53,397 nt of DNA. Origin: Candidatus Gastranaerophilales bacterium (GTDB lineage Bacteria > Cyanobacteriota > Vampirovibrionia > Gastranaerophilales > Gastranaerophilaceae). The first letter of the stretch is position 1. The number at the start of each line of letters is the position of its first letter. The position numbers and the translations under genes are program-made. Shown here piece after piece: positions 33,736 to 53,397 of the stretch. The notes beneath the pieces are model-generated. The model was given only the letters and a program-made list of their open reading frames with translations, was not told where the DNA came from and ran no database searches. The stretch spans positions 1 through 53,397 of the forward strand of contig CALUWK010000009.1 in the NCBI GenBank assembly GCA_944324475.1, given 5' to 3'.

Positions 33736-35577
33736 TTATCCAAAGTATGATTGGAATGAAGATAGTTGAGCACTTAACGACGAAATTGTTGAATCCATAT
33801 TATTAAATTGTTTAGTAATTCTTGCTTCATAGTTTGAAATTTTTGTGTTTGCCCTTTCAATTCTATCATTTACGGAATTTATTTGAGAATCAATACTTGA
33901 TGATTTTTGGCTAAAATATCCGTTTTGAATATCTAAAACAGACGTAACATCAGCTAATAGTTTATCAAACAACCCGTTATCGGTTTTACTTGTATAACCG
34001 TCAGATAAAAGTAATTTAACCGAATCAAAGTTTTTTGTTAATGCTTCATCTAATTTTTTTTCATCAATAGTTAGTTTGGTTGTATCTGCGGATGACGTTG
34101 AAATACCTATTTGAGCAAGCATTGTATACATTCCGTCATTATTGCTTATATCTGAAGTTAATCCTCTTACAGATGATAAAATGGAATTTAGCGTTGAATC
34201 ATGTCCTATTGCGCCATCCGAGCCTACCATTGATTTTGTTGTAGTTACTACATCATTGTATGCATCAACAAATGTTTGCAAGGCTTCTTTGACTTTTGTA
34301 TAATCGGGCTCAATATTAAGTGTGATATTTTTTTCATCATCTTTATTATTTGAATAATCGCTTGTTGGTTTTTTAACTGTAATTGAAAGATTAGCTATAC
34401 CGGATGATTCACCGGTTATTGTGTTTGAGGTTGAGATAACTTTATTTCCGTTTATGTATACTATTGCATTTTGACCCAACGTTTGAGAACCTTGAGCTAA
34501 TATTTCGTTTTCACCTTCACCTGTTGTAAAACCTAAAACATTTAATAAATTTGTTCCTGATTCAGTTAAACTTATGTTATTTTGACCTGTTTCGGTTGAA
34601 GTTAGAATAAGTTTATTAGTCAAAGAATCATAACTTGCTTTCACGTTTGCTTCGGAGTTTCCGTTAATTCTTGAAATTAAAGTATTTAATGATGTACTTT
34701 CATCAATTTCAAAATCTACACCGTTAATTGTAATTGTGCCTGATTTAGCTGGGTCTCCATTTTCATCGAAGAATTTTATTCCACTCAATCCCGATTCAGA
34801 ACTTGCCATTGCAGCTTTTGTATTAACTGTTGAAACTGGATAGGAGCTTGTGTAGCTGTATGTTCCTTCTTTATCATGCAGTTTTAAAGCTGAAGCTAAA
34901 TTAGATTCATCCGAGCTTGACCCTAAGGATAATATTGCATTTTCATCTACAATATAACTTTTTGCACCGTCAGAGTCAATTTCTTCTTTATATGCTTTTA
35001 TAGAAAAATTGCCGTTATCATCAACGCTTGCTTGAATTTTACCATCTGTTGCATTATAGATTTTATCCATAACATTTTTAACAGTATCATTTGATTCAAT
35101 TTCAATTTCATATTCTTTACCGTTTAAAAACATTGTGAAGTTACCTGCTGTTGCTTGACCGTTAGCAAGGTTTGTGAATTTTGCATTTTCTATATTTTCT
35201 TTTGAAATTGTACCTAAACTATTTACACTTTTTGCACTTGTTGCTGTTGCAATTTGTTCTATTTGAAGTTCAATATTAGCACTTGCAACATTCCCCGATG
35301 AAGTTGCGGTTGCATAAGCTGAATTAGAAGAATTTATTGTTGTATTGCACCACATATCGGATGAAGAATCGTAAATTGTTTTTGTAAAAGTTTGCAAAGC
35401 TGATTGTAAAGTTGAATACTTACCTTTTAACTCTGTTAGCGCTGAACTTTTATTTTGTAGAGTTGTCAGTTTTGTTTGAAGGGGTGTTAAAAGAGAAGTT
35501 TCTTTAGCAGAAACTAACTGGGTAATCCACCCGTCTATATCAAAACCTGAACCGACGCCTGTAATTGTTGTAGACAT
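33736..35577 (-). CDS. fliD: Flagellar hook-associated protein 2 (filament cap)
   Basis: A 613-residue FliD. The N-terminal coiled region starts GVGSGFDIDGWITQLV; the hook IN-type motif and variable middle domains span about 100-400. The C-terminal coiled coil ends QLSSFQSYFG. FliD caps the growing flagellar filament and lets flagellin fold into place. Composition is Ser/Thr-rich and Cys-poor (one Cys), as usual for exported axial proteins. AAGGA lies about nine bases before the ATG. No other flagellar gene is present, so this is an isolated locus. Confidence 0.93.
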   Translation of the reverse strand: MSTTITGVGSGFDIDGWITQLVSAKETSLLTPLQTKLTTLQNKSSALTELKGKYSTLQSALQTFTKTIYDSSSDMWCNTTINSSNSAYATATSSGNVASANIELQIEQIATATSAKSVNSLGTISKENIENAKFTNLANGQATAGNFTMFLNGKEYEIEIESNDTVKNVMDKIYNATDGKIQASVDDNGNFSIKAYKEEIDSDGAKSYIVDENAILSLGSSSDESNLASALKLHDKEGTYSYTSSYPVSTVNTKAAMASSESGLSGIKFFDENGDPAKSGTITINGVDFEIDESTSLNTLISRINGNSEANVKASYDSLTNKLILTSTETGQNNISLTESGTNLLNVLGFTTGEGENEILAQGSQTLGQNAIVYINGNKVISTSNTITGESSGIANLSITVKKPTSDYSNNKDDEKNITLNIEPDYTKVKEALQTFVDAYNDVVTTTKSMVGSDGAIGHDSTLNSILSSVRGLTSDISNNDGMYTMLAQIGISTSSADTTKLTIDEKKLDEALTKNFDSVKLLLSDGYTSKTDNGLFDKLLADVTSVLDIQNGYFSQKSSSIDSQINSVNDRIERANTKISNYEARITKQFNNMDSTISSLSAQLSSFQSYFG

Positions 35578-43446: not shown

Positions 43447-45075
43447 ATGAAAACAGTAATTATTGGTGGTGGGGCGGCAGGAGCAAGTTGTGCAACGAGA
43501 TTAAGAAGATTGGATGAAAAAGCTGAGATATTAATTTTGGAAAAAACAAATGAAATTTCAATAGCAAATTGTGGGCTTCCCTATTATATTTCAAATGTTA
43601 TAAATGACAGAGAAAAAATGCTTGTTTCAACTCCAGAGAAATTTAAAAATTGGTTTAATATTGATGTTAAGTTAAATGCTGAAGTTATTGATATAAATGT
43701 TAGTGAAAAAACAGTTATTCTAAAAAATAATGAAAAAATAAGTTATGATAAATTGGTTTTTGCTGTTGGTGCTAATCCTTTTGTACCGGATTTTAAAGGC
43801 TTAAATAAACAAAAAGTTTTTACTTTGAGGACTCTTAAAGATGCGGATAACATAAAAGATTCTATAAGAAATAATAATTTTAAAAAGATTATTGTAATAG
43901 GTGGAGGTTTTATAGGTGTAGAAGTTGCTGAAAATTTGTGTCAAATGGGACTTGAGGTTAGTCTTGTTGAGTTAGGAAGTTCTATTTTGCCTCAAGTTGA
44001 TTATGATATTTCGATTTTTGCTCAAAATGAAATGAAGGAAAATGGAGTAAATCTCATTTTATCAGATGGAGTTAAAGAATTTAGAGATGATAAAGTTATT
44101 TTAAATTCAAATAAAGAGCTTGATTTTGATATTGTTATTATGGCGATAGGTGTTCGCCCTGAAATTGAACTTGCTAAAAAGGCAGGATTAGATGTGAATA
44201 GAGGTATTAAAGTAAACGAATTTTTAGAAACTTCAAACAAAGATATTTATGCAGCAGGAGATAGCATTGAAGTTAAAGATTTTATATTTGAAGAAGACGC
44301 ACTAATTCCTTTAGCAGGTCCTGCGAATAGACAAGGAAGAATTGTTGCGGATAATATTTGTGGTCTTAGAGCAACTTATAAAAAAACTCAAGGAACATCT
44401 GTTATAAAAGTTTTTAATTATACTGTTGCAAACACTGGAGTTAATGAAAAACAGCTAAAAAGTAAGAACATAAAGTATTTTAAGACTTATCTTTTTGCAA
44501 GAAATCATGCAGGATATTATCCTGATTCATCGCAAGTTTTATATAAGCTTTTATTTGATGAAAATGGCAAAATATTTGGTTCGCAAGCGGTAGGTGCAGA
44601 TGGCGTAGAAAAAAGAATTGATGTAATATCAACAATAATTAGAAACAAGGGCACAATTCAAGATATGATTGATTCGGAATTATGTTATGCCCCTAAGTAT
44701 TCATCTGCTAAAGATGCGGTTAATTTGCTTGGAATGAATGCACAAAATATTCTAAAAGGATTTTTAAAACCGGCTTATTTTGAAGATTTAAGAGATTCTT
44801 TTATTATCGATGTGCGTCCTAAAATTGCTTATGAGTTACAAACTATAGAAAATGCGATAAATATACCTATAGATGAAATTAGGGAAAGAATGAATGAAAT
44901 TCCAAGAAACAAAAAGGTGGTTTTGTTTTGCAATACAGGGTATACAAGCTATTTAGCCTCTAGAATTTTAGTTCAAAATGGCTTTGATAATGTTTATTCT
45001 TTTTCGGGTGGATTTGAATTATATAGGGAACTTAATAGAACTATTGATATTAAAACGGTGGTTTTGGGTGAATAA
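43447..45075 (+). CDS. CoA-disulfide reductase/NADH oxidase-like flavoprotein fused to rhodanese
   Basis: A 542-residue FAD enzyme. FAD motif IIGGGAAGASCA, active Cys42 in SIANCGLPYYIS (the CoADR/NADH-oxidase type), NAD motif VIGGGFIGVEVAE, and the AAGDS FAD motif are present. A C-terminal rhodanese domain (about 450-540) has active Cys in CNTGYTS. CoADR-rhodanese fusions reduce CoA disulfides, CoA persulfides or polysulfides. It begins 10 bases after the dehydrogenase gene with AAAGG before the ATG, so it is probably co-transcribed, but no link to phosphonate chemistry is known to me. Confidence 0.9.
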   Translation: MKTVIIGGGAAGASCATRLRRLDEKAEILILEKTNEISIANCGLPYYISNVINDREKMLVSTPEKFKNWFNIDVKLNAEVIDINVSEKTVILKNNEKISYDKLVFAVGANPFVPDFKGLNKQKVFTLRTLKDADNIKDSIRNNNFKKIIVIGGGFIGVEVAENLCQMGLEVSLVELGSSILPQVDYDISIFAQNEMKENGVNLILSDGVKEFRDDKVILNSNKELDFDIVIMAIGVRPEIELAKKAGLDVNRGIKVNEFLETSNKDIYAAGDSIEVKDFIFEEDALIPLAGPANRQGRIVADNICGLRATYKKTQGTSVIKVFNYTVANTGVNEKQLKSKNIKYFKTYLFARNHAGYYPDSSQVLYKLLFDENGKIFGSQAVGADGVEKRIDVISTIIRNKGTIQDMIDSELCYAPKYSSAKDAVNLLGMNAQNILKGFLKPAYFEDLRDSFIIDVRPKIAYELQTIENAINIPIDEIRERMNEIPRNKKVVLFCNTGYTSYLASRILVQNGFDNVYSFSGGFELYRELNRTIDIKTVVLGE

Positions 45076-45142
45076 AGTTATTTAATTTGCAAATAATTGA
45101 GATTTATATTATCATCAAAATACCGACAAAAGCGAGAAATAA

Positions 45143-46447
45143 ATGGATTTAAAAATAATTTTTAATCTTATTTTTATAATTTTTTTACTTTTTGTAAATG
45201 GTTTCTTTGTAGCAGCTGAATTTGCTCTTGTTGGAGTTAGAAAAACGAGAATTTGCCAACTTGCAAACGAAGGAAATTTTGATGCTAAATTAGCATTTGA
45301 TGCAGTTAAAAATATTGATAGATATATTGCTGCAATACAGTTAGGTATAACTATTGCCAGTCTTGGAATAGGTTGGGTTGGAGAATCAACTCTTGCTAAG
45401 GTTTTATTGCCTTTATTTAAATTTTTACCTGTTAATTATGATAATATTGCAGCTCATAGTGTTGCAGTAGTAGTAGCATTTAGCGTAATTACAATATTGC
45501 ATGTTGTAATAGGTGAATTGATGCCAAAATCTATTGCACTTCAATATCCCGAGGATACAACTTTGTTTGTCGCAAAACCAATGTATATTATCACGAGGTT
45601 TTTTTCACCAATGATTTTTATTTTGAATGGTTTGGGAAATTTTCTTTTAAAGCTTATTAAAATAGAACCTGCGAACGAAAAAAGTAGAGCTTGCAGTAGC
45701 GAAGAACTTAATATGTTAATTGATGCGAGTTGTAAAGGCGGTGTTATAAAAGAGCAAGAAGCTGAAATGCTCCAGAATGTTTTTAAATTTTCCGAGCTTA
45801 ATGTATCTCAAATTATGAAGCCCAGAATGGAGATGGTTTGTATATCTGAAAATGCAACTATGCAAGAGTTAAATGAAATCATAATTGAAAATCAATTTAC
45901 AAGATATCCTGTTTATAAGGATGACTTGGATCATATAATCGGTTTTATTCATATGAAAGATTTGTATTTGCCTATTATAAATAATCAAGAAATAAAAATT
46001 TCAGAGATTTTAAGAAAACCTTTGTATGTTCCTGAAACTATGTCAGTTGAAAAGCTTAATATGGAATTTCAAAAAAAACATTCTCAAATGGCAATTGTTG
46101 TGGATGAATTTGGTGGGACTAGCGGATTGATTACGCATGAAGACATTTTAGAAGAAATTTTTGGTGATGTTCAAGATGAATTTGATGATGAAAACAATGA
46201 CTTAATTAAAAAAATAAATGAAAATGAATATGAGATTCTTGGAAAAACCAGAATAGATGAATTTGAAGATTACTTCAATGTAGAATTAAAAGAAGATGAA
46301 AGTGTTAATACGATAAGTGGTTATTTTATTAAAAAATTTGGCAAAATGGCAAAAATAAATGATGAAATAACTGATGAATTTTTCTTATATAAAGTGTCTG
46401 ATGTTGAGAGTATGAAAATATTAAAATTAAAAATAATAAAAAAATAA
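45143..46447 (+). CDS. CNNM/CorC-family membrane protein (hemolysin-related)
   Basis: A 434-residue protein. An N-terminal CNNM transmembrane domain (about 1-195, three to four helices, with GWVGESTLAK and IGELMPKS) is followed by a pair of CBS domains (about 205-330; motif MKPRMEM) and a C-terminal CorC/HlyC domain (about 345-430, TISGYFIKKFG). Members transport or regulate Mg2+ and other divalent ions; the CBS pair senses adenine nucleotides. The old name hemolysin is misleading. Confidence 0.93.
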   Translation: MDLKIIFNLIFIIFLLFVNGFFVAAEFALVGVRKTRICQLANEGNFDAKLAFDAVKNIDRYIAAIQLGITIASLGIGWVGESTLAKVLLPLFKFLPVNYDNIAAHSVAVVVAFSVITILHVVIGELMPKSIALQYPEDTTLFVAKPMYIITRFFSPMIFILNGLGNFLLKLIKIEPANEKSRACSSEELNMLIDASCKGGVIKEQEAEMLQNVFKFSELNVSQIMKPRMEMVCISENATMQELNEIIIENQFTRYPVYKDDLDHIIGFIHMKDLYLPIINNQEIKISEILRKPLYVPETMSVEKLNMEFQKKHSQMAIVVDEFGGTSGLITHEDILEEIFGDVQDEFDDENNDLIKKINENEYEILGKTRIDEFEDYFNVELKEDESVNTISGYFIKKFGKMAKINDEITDEFFLYKVSDVESMKILKLKIIKK

Positions 46448-46537: not shown

Positions 46538-48706
46538 ATGAAACTTGATGCTTTAATGTCTTTAATTTCAAATTATGCAACTTCTTACAGAGCTAAGGAA
46601 CAAAAAGATGATTTGGAAGGTTCTTATGAAGAAGAAAATTTTTTTAGTTCTCAAAAAGGTGAAAAAGTTGTATCAAGTTTGTTTTCTTTGTGTGACAACG
46701 ATAATAGCGGCGATTTGTCAAATGATGAATTAATAAATTTAATTCAAAAACTCGAAAGTTATTCTGAATTTTCGGGAATATCTTTTGAAGATTTTAGCAG
46801 TTATTCTGATGATGTTGATTTGCAAGGACAGGATATAAGCATAAATAATGATATTCAAAATCAAGATATTTTGCAATATTTTAATTCAAATAATGAATTA
46901 GAATTTTTATTAATGTCAGATGATTCTGTAAGTGATGAAATAATTGCAACCAGAAGTCAATTATTGGAAGATATACAGGCCAATTATGAATCAATTAATG
47001 CACTTAATCAAAAATCAGATTTAACTTCGGATGAACAAAAACAACTGAATCAACTTTTATCTCAAAGACAAGAATTATTAAAAAAACGTGATAAAATAGA
47101 ATCTGAACTTATAGAAAGTGCTTCACCTGAAACAATAGAGGCATTAAAAAATGTCCAAGAATCAAGACTTTCTTTAAATGATGATCAACTGGAAACCCTT
47201 ATTTCCTTGGGCCCGGTATATAGTAAGATAGACCCTGATATTGATGCAGCAGATGAAACAAAAGTTTCGGCAGCGGAAAGTACTTCTACTCCTCAAAACA
47301 CTTCTGTTCCTTATAGTGCGGATGGTTCCGGTGGAGTTCCACAGCAGTATAATCCGGCGGGCACTCAAGATATTCAACCTGTTGATGAAGCTTCTACCCT
47401 TGAACAATTAGAACAGCAAAAAGCGGAAAAAGAAGCTTCATTAGCTACAAGTCAGACAAATTTAAATGGTGTAATAGATGGGTCAAATTCTGAACTTGCA
47501 TCTTTGAAAGAACAGGAAAATACTGCATTTGAAGCATATAATGAACTTTTAGCAACTATAGCTCCTGAATTATCTCAGCAGTTAGAAACAACAAAAGGAA
47601 GCATAGAGGCCAAAGAGCAAGAAATTGCTCAAAATGAAATTGCAATATCTCAAAAAAATCAGGATATTACAAATACACAAATGAGTTTGGATAGAATTAA
47701 CGGTAATATTTCTTCTTGTGAAAATGCAATTTCATCTTTAGAAAGTGCTTTAACTTCTTCTGATTTAACGGAAGAAAAAAAGGCTTATATTAATGGAATG
47801 ATTCAAGCTATAAAAACTGCAATGGATGAATCAAAAACTGAAAAGACTACACTGGAGACTAATTTAAGTACCCAACAAAATGACCTAACAACTTTGCAAA
47901 CGGATTTAGAAACGAAACAAAATGATTTGGTGCAATTAAATACCACAATGGTAGAAATAGAGACTCAAATTGATAACTTAAATAATCAAGAATTGGCAAG
48001 TTTAAAAACCACTTATGAACAAGCAAAAAGTGATTATGAACAAAAACAAACCACTCTAAAAACACAATATGAAGGGGAAGTTAATCAACTTCAAGCAGAC
48101 ATTAAAGAACTTCAAGCAAAAATAATTCAAGAAGAAAACACTCAAATTGAAGCATTGGGCAATGTCTCGGGCATGCCTGGTACATATACTCTAAATGATC
48201 AAACTTATGATACTGTAATAGATGGCGCGGAACTTGAATCATACATTGCTCAAATTCAAAACGCAGGAGTTATGACTAAAAATGGACATGGCGGAATGTG
48301 TTTATCATTTTCTTATGCATATAGTGAATGGTTTAATGGCACTTCAACTATAGGTTTTGATGATGATGCCGCTACGCAATATGTAGGAGCATCAAGTTAT
48401 CAAGCGTTTGAAACATCAAGCAAAGAAACTGCTATGACAGAAATTGCAAATCAGCTTAATAGCGGTGTTCCCGTAATTATTCAAGTTAATGGTACGAACC
48501 ATGGCTCATATTATGGTAGACACTATGTTGTAGCTGTTGGATTAAGACAAGGTGCAAGCAATCCTCCGACTGAAAGTGATTTATTAATAGTTGATACTTA
48601 TGATGGACAAATTGAAGGTATGGGTGATTACGGATCAAGATTTATGACAGAAGGTTCAACTACAAAAGCTAATGATTACGATTATAGAATGTATGTAAGA
48701 AAATAA
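46538..48706 (+). CDS. EF-hand / coiled-coil / papain-like peptidase protein
   Basis: A 722-residue protein of novel build. Residues 53-64 are a canonical calcium-binding EF-hand loop (DNDNSGDLSNDE). A helical stretch and a Pro/Ser/Gly-rich linker (about 245-290) follow, then a long coiled coil rich in Gln, Glu and Thr (about 290-540). The C-terminal domain (546-722) looks like a C39/papain-type cysteine peptidase: Cys588 in GGMCLSF, His662 in GRHYVVAVG, Asp686 in VDTYDG. There is no classical signal peptide, so it is cytoplasmic or exported by another route. AAGGAG precedes the ATG. Function unknown; a secreted or surface protease/amidase is one possibility. Confidence 0.75.
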   Translation: MKLDALMSLISNYATSYRAKEQKDDLEGSYEEENFFSSQKGEKVVSSLFSLCDNDNSGDLSNDELINLIQKLESYSEFSGISFEDFSSYSDDVDLQGQDISINNDIQNQDILQYFNSNNELEFLLMSDDSVSDEIIATRSQLLEDIQANYESINALNQKSDLTSDEQKQLNQLLSQRQELLKKRDKIESELIESASPETIEALKNVQESRLSLNDDQLETLISLGPVYSKIDPDIDAADETKVSAAESTSTPQNTSVPYSADGSGGVPQQYNPAGTQDIQPVDEASTLEQLEQQKAEKEASLATSQTNLNGVIDGSNSELASLKEQENTAFEAYNELLATIAPELSQQLETTKGSIEAKEQEIAQNEIAISQKNQDITNTQMSLDRINGNISSCENAISSLESALTSSDLTEEKKAYINGMIQAIKTAMDESKTEKTTLETNLSTQQNDLTTLQTDLETKQNDLVQLNTTMVEIETQIDNLNNQELASLKTTYEQAKSDYEQKQTTLKTQYEGEVNQLQADIKELQAKIIQEENTQIEALGNVSGMPGTYTLNDQTYDTVIDGAELESYIAQIQNAGVMTKNGHGGMCLSFSYAYSEWFNGTSTIGFDDDAATQYVGASSYQAFETSSKETAMTEIANQLNSGVPVIIQVNGTNHGSYYGRHYVVAVGLRQGASNPPTESDLLIVDTYDGQIEGMGDYGSRFMTEGSTTKANDYDYRMYVRK

Positions 48707-49628: not shown

Positions 49629-52310
49629 ATGAGGTTGAGGCTATTTATTATTTTAATTTTATTCATTATATGTAGCGCTGAGGCAAACAATATTTATGTT
49701 AGTAATTTCGATGAGCTTTTAAGTTCTGGACCTGGAAGCACAAATGGAGATATTATAACTATTATAGATAATTTAATTTCAGAAAGCTCAATTGGAAATA
49801 ATTTTTATGCAAAAAATTTAACTTTTCAAGGTGAAAGTCATAGTATAGATGGTAAAGATATTTTTGGGGGGTTTGTATTAAGCGAAGGAAGTACTTTTGA
49901 TAGTTTAAAGATAATAAATTGTAAAGGTCAATTTTATAATTATCATTATTATGCAGGAGCTATATATAACACAGGTGGCAATACGGCAATATTAAACTCT
50001 GCTTTTGTTGGTAATTATGCAAATGCACAAGGTATTAATTTTGCTTTTGCTGGGGCAGTTTATAACGAAGAAGGCGGAGCAATAACAATAGATTCTTCTC
50101 TTTTTAGTAATAATTATACCTTTGGTGCAAGTGCAGAAGGTGGAGCTATTGGTAATGAATCTGGGGCAAATACAATAAATATTAATGACTCTGTTTTTAG
50201 TGGAAATTACACAAATGGAAGTGCTGTTTCTTATGGTGGAGCAATTTTTAATTTAAAAGATGCAACAATGAATATATCAAACAGTTTATTTAATGATAAT
50301 TTTGCCATAACTCAAGATACAAATGTCAATTTGTTTGGTGGAAGCATTTATAATACAGGAGATATGAACATAGAAAACTGTTATTTTTTAAATAACCATA
50401 TTATTGGAAATGACGGCTCGCTTTCCTATGGCGGAGCAATTCATAATAATTCAAATTTGAATATTTTAAATAGCATTTTTAGTAATAATTATATAAGCTC
50501 TGATGTAGATTCATCGGGTGGAGCCATTTATAATTATATAGATGGAAATATCACAATTCAAGATTCAACTTTTGTAAATAATTATTTAAGTGCTCAAAAT
50601 ACAAGAGGTGGAGCTATTGGTAATGAGGGCATTTTAACTATTATAAATTCAACTTTTAAAGATAATAGTGATTCAAGCGGATTAAATGATATTTTTAGTA
50701 TTAATACCATAAATTTTAATGGCAATGGTACAACAAATATATATGGTGGGATTAGGGGAAGTGGTGAAATATATAAAAATGACAACGGAGTTTTAAATTT
50801 AGGTGGTAATAATTCAAATTATACAGGCAATTTCTCTTTAAATGAGGGGACTGTTAATATTCTTGAAGGTTGCAGTTATTTTAATGCTAAAATAACTAAT
50901 TTTTCGAACAATGTTAATTTTAATATGCAAAATAATCAAATAGATAATATAAATTTCGATATTTTAAGTTTAACCGGACAGGCAAATGTTTACCCTGATG
51001 TTGATTTTTCAACAAATACAATGGATACAATTAATGCCGATAGTATAAGTGGATCGGGTAGTATATTTGTTCCAAACCTTTCTTTAATTGGTGTTCCCGA
51101 GGGAGAATATATTTCAATTCCTTTTGCTGATTCTGTTTTAAAAAATTCAGTTAAATATAATTCTCAAATTATAAAAACCCCTATTTATGATTATTTGTCA
51201 TCATACAATTTGTCTAATGGTCATTTTGATTTTAGCAGAAAAAGTTTTAACTCATCAGTTTTTTCACCAGCCGTTGCAGCTCAACTTGCTGGTTATCTTG
51301 GTCAGGTGGATATGTTTAATGATGTTTTTTCAAATCTTGACATGGTTTTGGTATTGGATAAAAAAAGGAAAATTGCACTAGATTTTTATAATAAAATTGC
51401 AAATATTAATCAAAATCAATTTATTTTTTCACCTTTGTCGATACCTGAAGAAAATAAAGGAATTTGGTTAAGACCTTATACAACTTTTGAAAAGGTACCT
51501 TTAAAAAATGGTCCTGATGTATCAAGTGTTTCTTATGGCAGTATTTTTGGAGGCGAAAGTAATCTTTTGGATTTAAAGAAAGGCTGGAAATATTTATACG
51601 GAGGTTATGGCGGATATAGCGGTTCACATCAAGCATTTAACGGTATTGGTATATATAATAATGGCGGTTTTTTGGGTGCAGTAAGCGCTTTTTATAGAAA
51701 TAATTTCTTTTCTTTATGGAGTGTTTCAGTTGGTGCAAATAGTGCAAAAGCGCATACATATTTTGGAAATGACGGTTTTTCTATGCTAAATGCTGGTATA
51801 GCTCAAAAAACAGGTTTTAATATTCCATTATTTGAAGATAAATTTATAATTCAACCAAATATAATGACATCTTATACTTTTGTTAATACTTTTGATTATA
51901 CTGCTTCGGAAAATGTTTCAATGGATTCTAAACCTTTAAATGCTTTGCATATTGAACCGCAAATAAAAATAATAGGTAATTTAAAAAATCTTTTACAACC
52001 TTACATTGCTGTTTCTGTTGCTTGGAATATTTTGGATGAATCAAGGTTTCATGCAAATGATGTTTATTTGCCTGAACTATCTATAAAACCTTATGTGAGA
52101 TATGGTGCAGGAATTCAAAAACGTATAGGAGACAGTTTTCTTGGCTTTATTCAAGCATATATTACAAATGGCGGAAGAAATGGGATTGGATTACAATTAG
52201 GTTTAAGATGGTCAATAGGCAAAGTCGCAGAACCAAAAAAAAGTATAAAGCAAACACATTTGCCTGAATTAAAAAAGACTGAAATTACACTAAAAAATAT
52301 AAAATTTTAA
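49629..52310 (+). CDS. Pmp-like autotransporter adhesin
   Basis: An 893-residue type V secreted protein. A signal peptide (about 1-19, ending AEA) is followed by a right-handed beta-helix passenger. Residues 109-346 hold eight repeats of about 31 residues, each with GGAI-like and FxxN motifs (for example GGAIGN, FSGN), the hallmark of chlamydial polymorphic outer-membrane proteins. A linker and helix (about 540-600) lead to a C-terminal beta-barrel (about 610-865). After the last barrel strand (LGLRWSIG) there is an extra tail of about 30 basic residues, unusual because autotransporters normally end at the barrel. Probably an adhesin on the cell surface. No neighbours help. Confidence 0.9.
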   Translation: MRLRLFIILILFIICSAEANNIYVSNFDELLSSGPGSTNGDIITIIDNLISESSIGNNFYAKNLTFQGESHSIDGKDIFGGFVLSEGSTFDSLKIINCKGQFYNYHYYAGAIYNTGGNTAILNSAFVGNYANAQGINFAFAGAVYNEEGGAITIDSSLFSNNYTFGASAEGGAIGNESGANTININDSVFSGNYTNGSAVSYGGAIFNLKDATMNISNSLFNDNFAITQDTNVNLFGGSIYNTGDMNIENCYFLNNHIIGNDGSLSYGGAIHNNSNLNILNSIFSNNYISSDVDSSGGAIYNYIDGNITIQDSTFVNNYLSAQNTRGGAIGNEGILTIINSTFKDNSDSSGLNDIFSINTINFNGNGTTNIYGGIRGSGEIYKNDNGVLNLGGNNSNYTGNFSLNEGTVNILEGCSYFNAKITNFSNNVNFNMQNNQIDNINFDILSLTGQANVYPDVDFSTNTMDTINADSISGSGSIFVPNLSLIGVPEGEYISIPFADSVLKNSVKYNSQIIKTPIYDYLSSYNLSNGHFDFSRKSFNSSVFSPAVAAQLAGYLGQVDMFNDVFSNLDMVLVLDKKRKIALDFYNKIANINQNQFIFSPLSIPEENKGIWLRPYTTFEKVPLKNGPDVSSVSYGSIFGGESNLLDLKKGWKYLYGGYGGYSGSHQAFNGIGIYNNGGFLGAVSAFYRNNFFSLWSVSVGANSAKAHTYFGNDGFSMLNAGIAQKTGFNIPLFEDKFIIQPNIMTSYTFVNTFDYTASENVSMDSKPLNALHIEPQIKIIGNLKNLLQPYIAVSVAWNILDESRFHANDVYLPELSIKPYVRYGAGIQKRIGDSFLGFIQAYITNGGRNGIGLQLGLRWSIGKVAEPKKSIKQTHLPELKKTEITLKNIKF

Positions 52311-53013: not shown

Positions 53014-53397
53014 TTTATGTTGTTTGAGCTTAGTGAGACTTCACTTAGTGAATGCAGTTTAGGCACAGGTGTGTGAAGTGCGAAAGCAGGAACGTTGAGC
53101 TCGTGCCGAGCACGTATACCTTTCCACTGCGACGTAGAAATTTGCTATATGCAAATTTTACAGGAGCGGAGCGGTTGCTCCGAGACGTTTGTCCTATATT
53201 AAAACTTTATATAAATGCAAAAAATTTGCCGCGTCTCACTCTGCCGAGAAAAAGTCCGAAGGAGTTTTTCGAGAGGGCATTAGCGGAGTGTAAAAGGACA
53301 CATGGTTTGATTATTTGTTTCACATGGTTTGATTATTTTGGGCAACATAAATTTGAAATATTAAATAAATGAGCAAATTTGCAATTTTAAGAATATA
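53014..53397. other. Repeat-bearing region of different composition, no clear gene
   Basis: The last 384 bases hold no gene I can support. From about 53040 to 53290 the GC content is visibly higher than elsewhere. Short palindromes crowd together: CGTGC-CGA-GCACG (53103-53115), AAATTTGC-N5-GCAAATTT (53138-53158) and GGAGC-N8-GCTCC. A 106-codon frame exists (53052-53372) but its translation is a mix of Arg, Cys and Phe with no domain, no signal and no ribosome-binding site. Likely an intergenic repeat element or the edge of a mobile element. Confidence 0.5.
53299..53338. repeat. Tandem direct repeat, 18-bp unit
   Basis: CACATGGTTTGATTATTT occurs at 53299-53316 and again at 53321-53338, period 22 bases. 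It lies at the right edge of the GC-richer region. Confidence 0.8.

Follow-up and report, generated by a model that had tools for sequence, protein, structure and literature searches.

A Gastranaerophilales autotransporter with a conserved basic tail beyond its barrel, a candidate periplasmic docking peptide

Introduction

To our knowledge, the usual description of an autotransporter stops at the barrel and leaves no part of the chain in the periplasm. A gene of a Gastranaerophilales genome, from an order placed in Candidatus Melainabacteria, raises the question of what it would mean for the chain to run on. The gene (positions 49629-52310, + strand, ATG start, 893 aa) lies in a window of 53,397 nucleotides, the whole stretch of DNA analysed here, and a sequence-only reading had described its product as an autotransporter with chlamydial Pmp-like repeats and a post-barrel tail, a candidate host-contact adhesin. 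Literature searches on autotransporters in Gastranaerophilales, Vampirovibrionia or Melainabacteria, and on adhesins in Gastranaerophilales, returned no relevant account as judged by title. The reading that we favour, at a probability of about 0.5, is that the protein is a type Va autotransporter whose tail would serve as a periplasmic docking peptide. If this is true, a conserved post-barrel motif carried by very different passengers means that some autotransporters are linked to the envelope interior. The barrel family to which the protein belongs also comprises widespread type V surface proteins of a gut-associated order known mostly from metagenomes.

Results

Rung motifs and the question of chlamydial kinship

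FxxN motifs lie in register at residues 126, 159, 190, 221, 253, 284, 315 and 343 (n = 8), with spacings of 33, 31, 31, 32, 31, 31 and 28 residues (mean 31.0), and are accompanied by GGA-like motifs at residues 109 (AGAI), 141 (AGAV), 171, 203, 237 (GGSI), 268, 297 and 327. Chains of eight motifs at spacings of 28-34 residues appeared in none of 5,000 composition shuffles of residues 24-540, for either motif. The alternation of eight GGAI with eight FxxN motifs at a period of about 31, reported from the sequence, therefore holds for the counts and the period and needs amending for the letters: only five of the eight in-register GGA-like motifs are literal GGAI, those at 109, 141 and 237 being variants, and a sixth literal GGAI, at residue 149, falls out of register. 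In the AlphaFold2 model the motifs are placed at turns between the short strands of each rung, FxxN 159-162 lying where strand 158-160 turns into strand 163-170 and GGAI 171-174 where strand 163-170 turns into strand 174-176. These positions agree with turns T2 and T4 of Pmps as given in the available part of PMC10715098.

The Pmp-like spacing of the motif pairs is also what suggested an adhesin of the chlamydial Pmp type, one that would bind host cells through its FxxN and GGA motifs. Peptides and mutants of Chlamydia pneumoniae Pmp21 implicate these motifs in adhesion, according to the available part of PMC2997323, and three distant barrel relatives (L099, L102 and L106) match the Pmp repeat model PF02415 above its cut-off, so Pmp-type rungs are present in the barrel family. 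Against this, PF02415 has no match at E≤1 in the 893-aa protein and matches only 2 of 17 orthologues, weakly (best E 0.00034); in a sequence test at E≤1, no Pfam match to the Pmp middle domain was obtained in 17 members; and its genome has just one copy of the gene, while Pmps form multi-gene families and related genomes hold several copies. Kinship with chlamydial Pmps is accordingly not borne out. Nor does the step from motifs to a host-contact adhesin follow, since later structural work, in the parts of PMC10715098 and PMC11166332 available, describes the conserved FxxN/GGA residues as packing elements inside the beta-helix and finds them in non-chlamydial proteins too; as rung-packing motifs that also occur outside Chlamydia, they are no evidence of host contact. 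A Pmp-type adhesin is thus unlikely, and adhesion by the passenger is possible in the way that it is for any beta-helical passenger.

A type Va autotransporter missed by the common model

The full-length AlphaFold2 model (17 input sequences; mean pLDDT 84.3, pTM 0.66) consists of a beta-helix, a helix at residues 546-570, 12 barrel strands ending with strand 851-863, and a disordered tail at 864-893 (Table 1). A model of the barrel alone puts the last strand at fragment residues 311-323, which correspond to the same residues 851-863. The basic tail of about 30 residues noticed in the sequence is therefore found after the last barrel strand, and structure prediction, used to check whether the tail itself might be that strand, assigns the strand to the residues before it. 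NalP (1uyn) aligns to the barrel model with Z 31.4 and an rmsd of 2.0 over 268 residues, and EspP (Z 30.6), Hbp (Z 30.4), AIDA-I (Z 29.9) and EstA match as well; the alignments to autotransporter structures run from model residue 1-2 on, helix included, and stop at residue 323-325, leaving most of the tail outside them. For the full model, Foldseek placed the BrkA beta-domain (3qq2) at the top rank, with E 3.3e-10.

At the sequence level, PF03797 has no match in the 893-aa protein, in its barrel profile or in anything encoded by its own genome; a PDB sequence search returned nothing for either the protein or the barrel profile, and PHROGs nothing for the protein. A profile link to PF03797 runs through a divergent family member (L113), which is found by the family profile (A2) at E 1.3e-40 and itself matches PF03797 with 37.4 bits (cut-off 26, E 3.1e-9). 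Together, the modelled 12-strand barrel, alpha-linker and beta-helix and the match to type Va structures sustain the earlier autotransporter call: going by the models, the protein is almost certainly an autotransporter, predicted to be of type Va (classical, monomeric) and missed by the common model PF03797. Because PF03797 misses the barrel family in this genome, its surface biology is easily overlooked.

This autotransporter structure is predicted with good confidence, and its secretion may be read from the class. The signal peptide would send the protein to the periplasm, where an Omp85 machine, of which the genome encodes one, would insert the 12-strand barrel using the beta-signal of the last strand; the passenger would then cross the barrel and fold outside as a beta-helix, its rungs packed by the FxxN and GGA motifs.

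Table 1. Features assigned to the 893-aa protein, with residue numbers, window coordinates and the basis of each assignment.
Feature	Residues	Window coordinates	Strand	Basis
Putative signal peptide	1-19	49629..49685	+	By eye: basic start, hydrophobic core, AEA before NN
Predicted beta-helical passenger	42-540	49752..51248	+	Full-length AlphaFold2 model; up to residue 390, pLDDT 85-98 in most blocks
FxxN / GGA-like repeat region, period 31	109-346	49953..50666	+	Motif positions, shuffles, turns in model
Autotransporter beta-strand repeat	381-411	50769..50861	+	TIGR02601, 23.5 bits (cut-off 19.85); PF12951 (PATR) below cut-off
Predicted alpha-helical linker before barrel	546-570	51264..51338	+	Helix in both models (2-28 in barrel model)
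Predicted 12-stranded outer-membrane barrel	610-863	51456..52217	+	Model strands; NalP and BrkA matches
Beta-signal QLGLRWSI in last strand	856-863	52194..52217	+	Fits zeta-x-G-x-x-phi-x-phi
Putative periplasmic tail, basic, predicted disordered	864-893	52218..52307	+	Both models; tailed orthologues and paralogues
Conserved tail core PELKKTEITL	879-888	52263..52292	+	Core pattern in 40 of 50 tails

The barrel family across Gastranaerophilales

A profile of the C-terminal domain matches 301 of 383 genomes of the order Gastranaerophilales (E≤0.001). Of 240 genomes drawn from the class, 122 match, 120 of them inside the order and 2 outside. Several copies occur in many genomes, among the matches scored per genome; the passengers carried by family barrels differ greatly in length, with ORFs of up to 5248 aa among the matches listed. 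Among 16 loci of relatives, those with named records come from Candidatus Gastranaerophilales MAGs or from records labelled 'uncultured bacterium'. The barrel family is widespread in these gut relatives of cyanobacteria, and apparently undescribed. Several contigs of one genome (G219) contain short ORFs (52-65 aa) whose matches cover just the final part of the barrel profile; some of these probably sit at the edges of contigs, where the assembly was broken by repeated barrel genes.

Composition and prevalence of the tail

The 30 residues of the tail include 8 Lys and carry a net charge of +5 (K/R minus D/E, counted by eye), and residues 866-893 have pLDDT values under 50 in the models. In type Va barrels strand 12 ends on the periplasmic side, so by analogy with the class the tail should lie in the periplasm; a tail of 28 residues, if extended, would span some 90 angstroms, enough for the cell wall.

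Nine of the 17 proteins in the first alignment are tailed and eight end exactly at the barrel end. Larger samples were ranked by a profile that contains tail columns and so favours tails, and their shares, which are not unbiased, were as follows: among 101 distinct C-termini, 50 have at least 15 post-barrel residues, 11 have 3-14 and 38 have 0-2, one being cut at a contig edge (L085) and one unanchored (L095), while a second set of 40 consecutive mid-rank matches comprised 24 tailed (21 scored, 2 by eye and 1 cut by the stretch edge, L175), 14 tailless (12 scored, 2 by eye) and 2 short members. The four judged by eye, all unanchored, were L144, L153, L162 and L163.

Tail statistics were computed on 73 tails, 68 of them distinct, with the cut one excluded. 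Lysine makes up 22% of the distinct tails, and 67 of the 68 are net positive. The pattern K[TAPSK]x[IVLMF]x[LVI] occurs in 47 of them, against a mean of 6.8 and a maximum of 13 in shuffles, with a shared core near PELPKTxIxLxNIK; a second tail type, with a VIK-like core, accounts for 17 (shuffled mean 2.0, maximum 6). ORFs of up to 3369 aa bear the same tail type. The longest case discussed here (L187, G059:C15:7700-12500) has a post-barrel tail of 465 residues, rich in K, V, T, E, Q and P, in which two copies of a VIK-type segment are followed by KKHLEYTTRTKMN; the segment reads VIK/INQ...EKKHLEYTTRTKMN, and a GFFSGLFS stretch is also present. An unrelated post-barrel extension of roughly 215 residues occurs in L095/L182. 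As judged from these comparisons, the tail is a conserved and recurrent feature of a large family.

Use of the tail motif as a general outer-membrane tag was considered and rejected. The DNA pattern for PE[LIVFM]xK[TASP] has 20 matches in the genome. The gene itself aside, a single long frame (L126) has a match no more than 20 residues from a stop, and there the rest of the core is missing; the other matches lie inside unrelated frames, or in short or antisense frames.

Gain, loss and selection of tails

In a tree of 96 barrels, the window protein and its tailed orthologues (17 rows) form a well-supported group. The type of tail switches several times along this tree, the PELPK type undergoing 7 changes, at least 4 of which are forced by supported branches, and from these repeated changes it appears that tails come and go, or get exchanged. 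Two distant barrels (L008:2211-3269 and L051:1705-2760) have near-identical tail linkers (GKTKPSNIDRTS..GIPELPK) that are more alike than the barrels, with an identity of 0.82 in the linker window versus 0.42-0.80 in the preceding windows; this is suggestive only of an exchange of 3'-end (tail) DNA between these paralogues.

Pooled over five close pairs, which partly overlap and are not independent, pN/pS is 0.30 in the tail, 0.17 in the passenger and 0.10 in the barrel. The tail thus evolves faster than the barrel, and with a pooled value of 0.30 it seems to be under selection. These data bear on a reading of the tail as an extension that is simply tolerated, having arisen by loss of a stop codon and having little or no function: its presence flips repeatedly on the tree, tail lengths and linkers vary widely, and its pN/pS is the highest of the three regions, as such an extension would have it. 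The same core is nevertheless found in the tails of distantly related barrels (e.g. L101), its frequency far exceeds that in shuffles, and the pooled pN/pS of the tail speaks against it as well, which makes a tolerated extension improbable.

Among the relatives scored, 68 of 72 with a tail and 35 of 50 without one have the beta-signal in its strict form, and all 72 tailed ones have it in relaxed form. As the signal is kept in the last strand of tailed members, the tail is best regarded as an addition after a normal barrel. The same result weighs on a second alternative, in which the tail is an assembly or quality-control tag that BAM, a chaperone or a protease reads while the protein is being inserted and that has no later role. 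A strand-like core near the C-terminus, where assembly machines read outer-membrane proteins, would suit such a tag, as would the terminal K or R of 43 of the 68 distinct tails (36 K, 7 R). With an ordinary beta-signal intact in tailed members, the same barrel existing in tailless relatives, and a tail of 465 residues that far exceeds the needs of a tag, we consider this role the less likely one, if clearly more plausible than a functionless extension.

Genome context

The genes flanking the window gene are mostly not common to the 16 relatives: L003 shares two genes within 43447-46447, and L002, L008 and L010 share smaller pieces. The neighbourhood yielded no functional clue. RNA and tRNA searches of the window came back empty, the surroundings of the gene showed no intrinsic terminator-like site, and the number of promoter-like matches (42) was not far above chance (32.1, sd 6.2). 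Elsewhere in the window, positions 46538-48706 (+) encode a 722-aa protein whose N-terminal part has weak EF-hand matches, whose long middle resembles a coiled coil and whose C-terminus weakly matches a C39-like peptidase, and a FliD-like flagellar cap protein at 33736-35577 (-) suggests a flagellated member of the group. For a 106-aa ORF at 53052-53372 (+) no family matched significantly; a segment close to its C-terminal end is found again in L008 (96% identity over 27 residues) and L002 (86% over 22).

Discussion

Proposed docking of the tail, and its rivals

A short strand-like core that is conserved beyond a variable basic linker, in proteins with many unrelated passengers, has the look of a docking motif. 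We propose that the tail comprises a flexible basic linker and a short docking strand of the PELPKTxIxLxNIK type, the strand being suggested by the conserved pattern; it would bind a partner in the periplasm, the likeliest candidates being the cell wall and proteins bound to the wall or residing in the inner membrane, and would thereby fix or position the surface rod. Taken by itself, docking by the tail is at or slightly under an even chance. The 465-residue tail of L187 fits the expectation of a spacer carrying docking motifs. On the other side, the models leave the tail disordered where a docking strand is proposed, and it evolves faster than the barrel. Tailless relatives are also numerous (38 of 101; 14 of 40), which means that the barrel can do without a tail, and outer-membrane tethering could already be supplied by the SLH proteins of the genome (8 repeats on 4 ORFs, on C7, C12, C14 and C18) and by its one OmpA-type domain match. 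A broader proposal, which we hold only tentatively, sees the short motif beyond the barrel, which at least one member repeats along a long lysine-rich spacer, as the point by which many different surface rods dock to one shared partner in the periplasm or cell wall; the motif would then be an interchangeable periplasmic anchor for type V secretion.

Braun's lipoprotein offers a precedent for attachment of another kind: an L,D-transpeptidase joins its C-terminal lysine covalently to peptidoglycan. The 36 distinct tails that end in K would allow it, but the 893-aa protein ends in KF rather than K, and no YkuD domain (PF03734, L,D-transpeptidase) was found in its own genome, which is 97% complete, whereas 6 of 14 control genomes match; a covalent wall link is very improbable. 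SLH repeats together with the lack of a YkuD match suggest non-covalent outer-membrane tethering.

Comparison with known systems

What appears to be new is the Gastranaerophilales barrel family as such, together with its conserved tail; post-barrel segments (PMC3419190) and FxxN/GGA rungs outside Chlamydia (PMC10715098, PMC11166332) are already described in the available parts of these papers. With NalP, EspP, Hbp, AIDA-I, EstA and BrkA the protein shares a predicted 12-strand barrel, an alpha-linker, a beta-helical passenger and a beta-signal in the last strand, and it differs from type Va autotransporters in being undetected by PF03797 and in a chain that runs 30 residues past the barrel. 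With chlamydial Pmps it has in common an autotransporter barrel and beta-helix rungs that each bear one FxxN and one GGA(I,L,V)-type motif, but it is without an HMM-recognisable Pmp repeat or middle domain, is present here in a single copy, and has no other sequence kinship that we could find. The Pmp-like beta-helix proteins of Akkermansia, Methanobacteria and Trichomonas, unrelated lineages, show the same rung motifs, and the available portions of the papers describing them (PMC11166332, PMC10715098) mention neither Gastranaerophilales nor a conserved post-barrel tail. The closest parallel to the tail is the short 'alpha-tail' that Celik et al. (2012) report, in the available part of PMC3419190, for 12 of 1523 autotransporter sequences: like the tail considered here, it follows the last barrel motif and is presumed to be periplasmic, whereas the Gastranaerophilales tail is predicted to be disordered, is basic, carries a PELPKTxIxL core and recurs across a large family.
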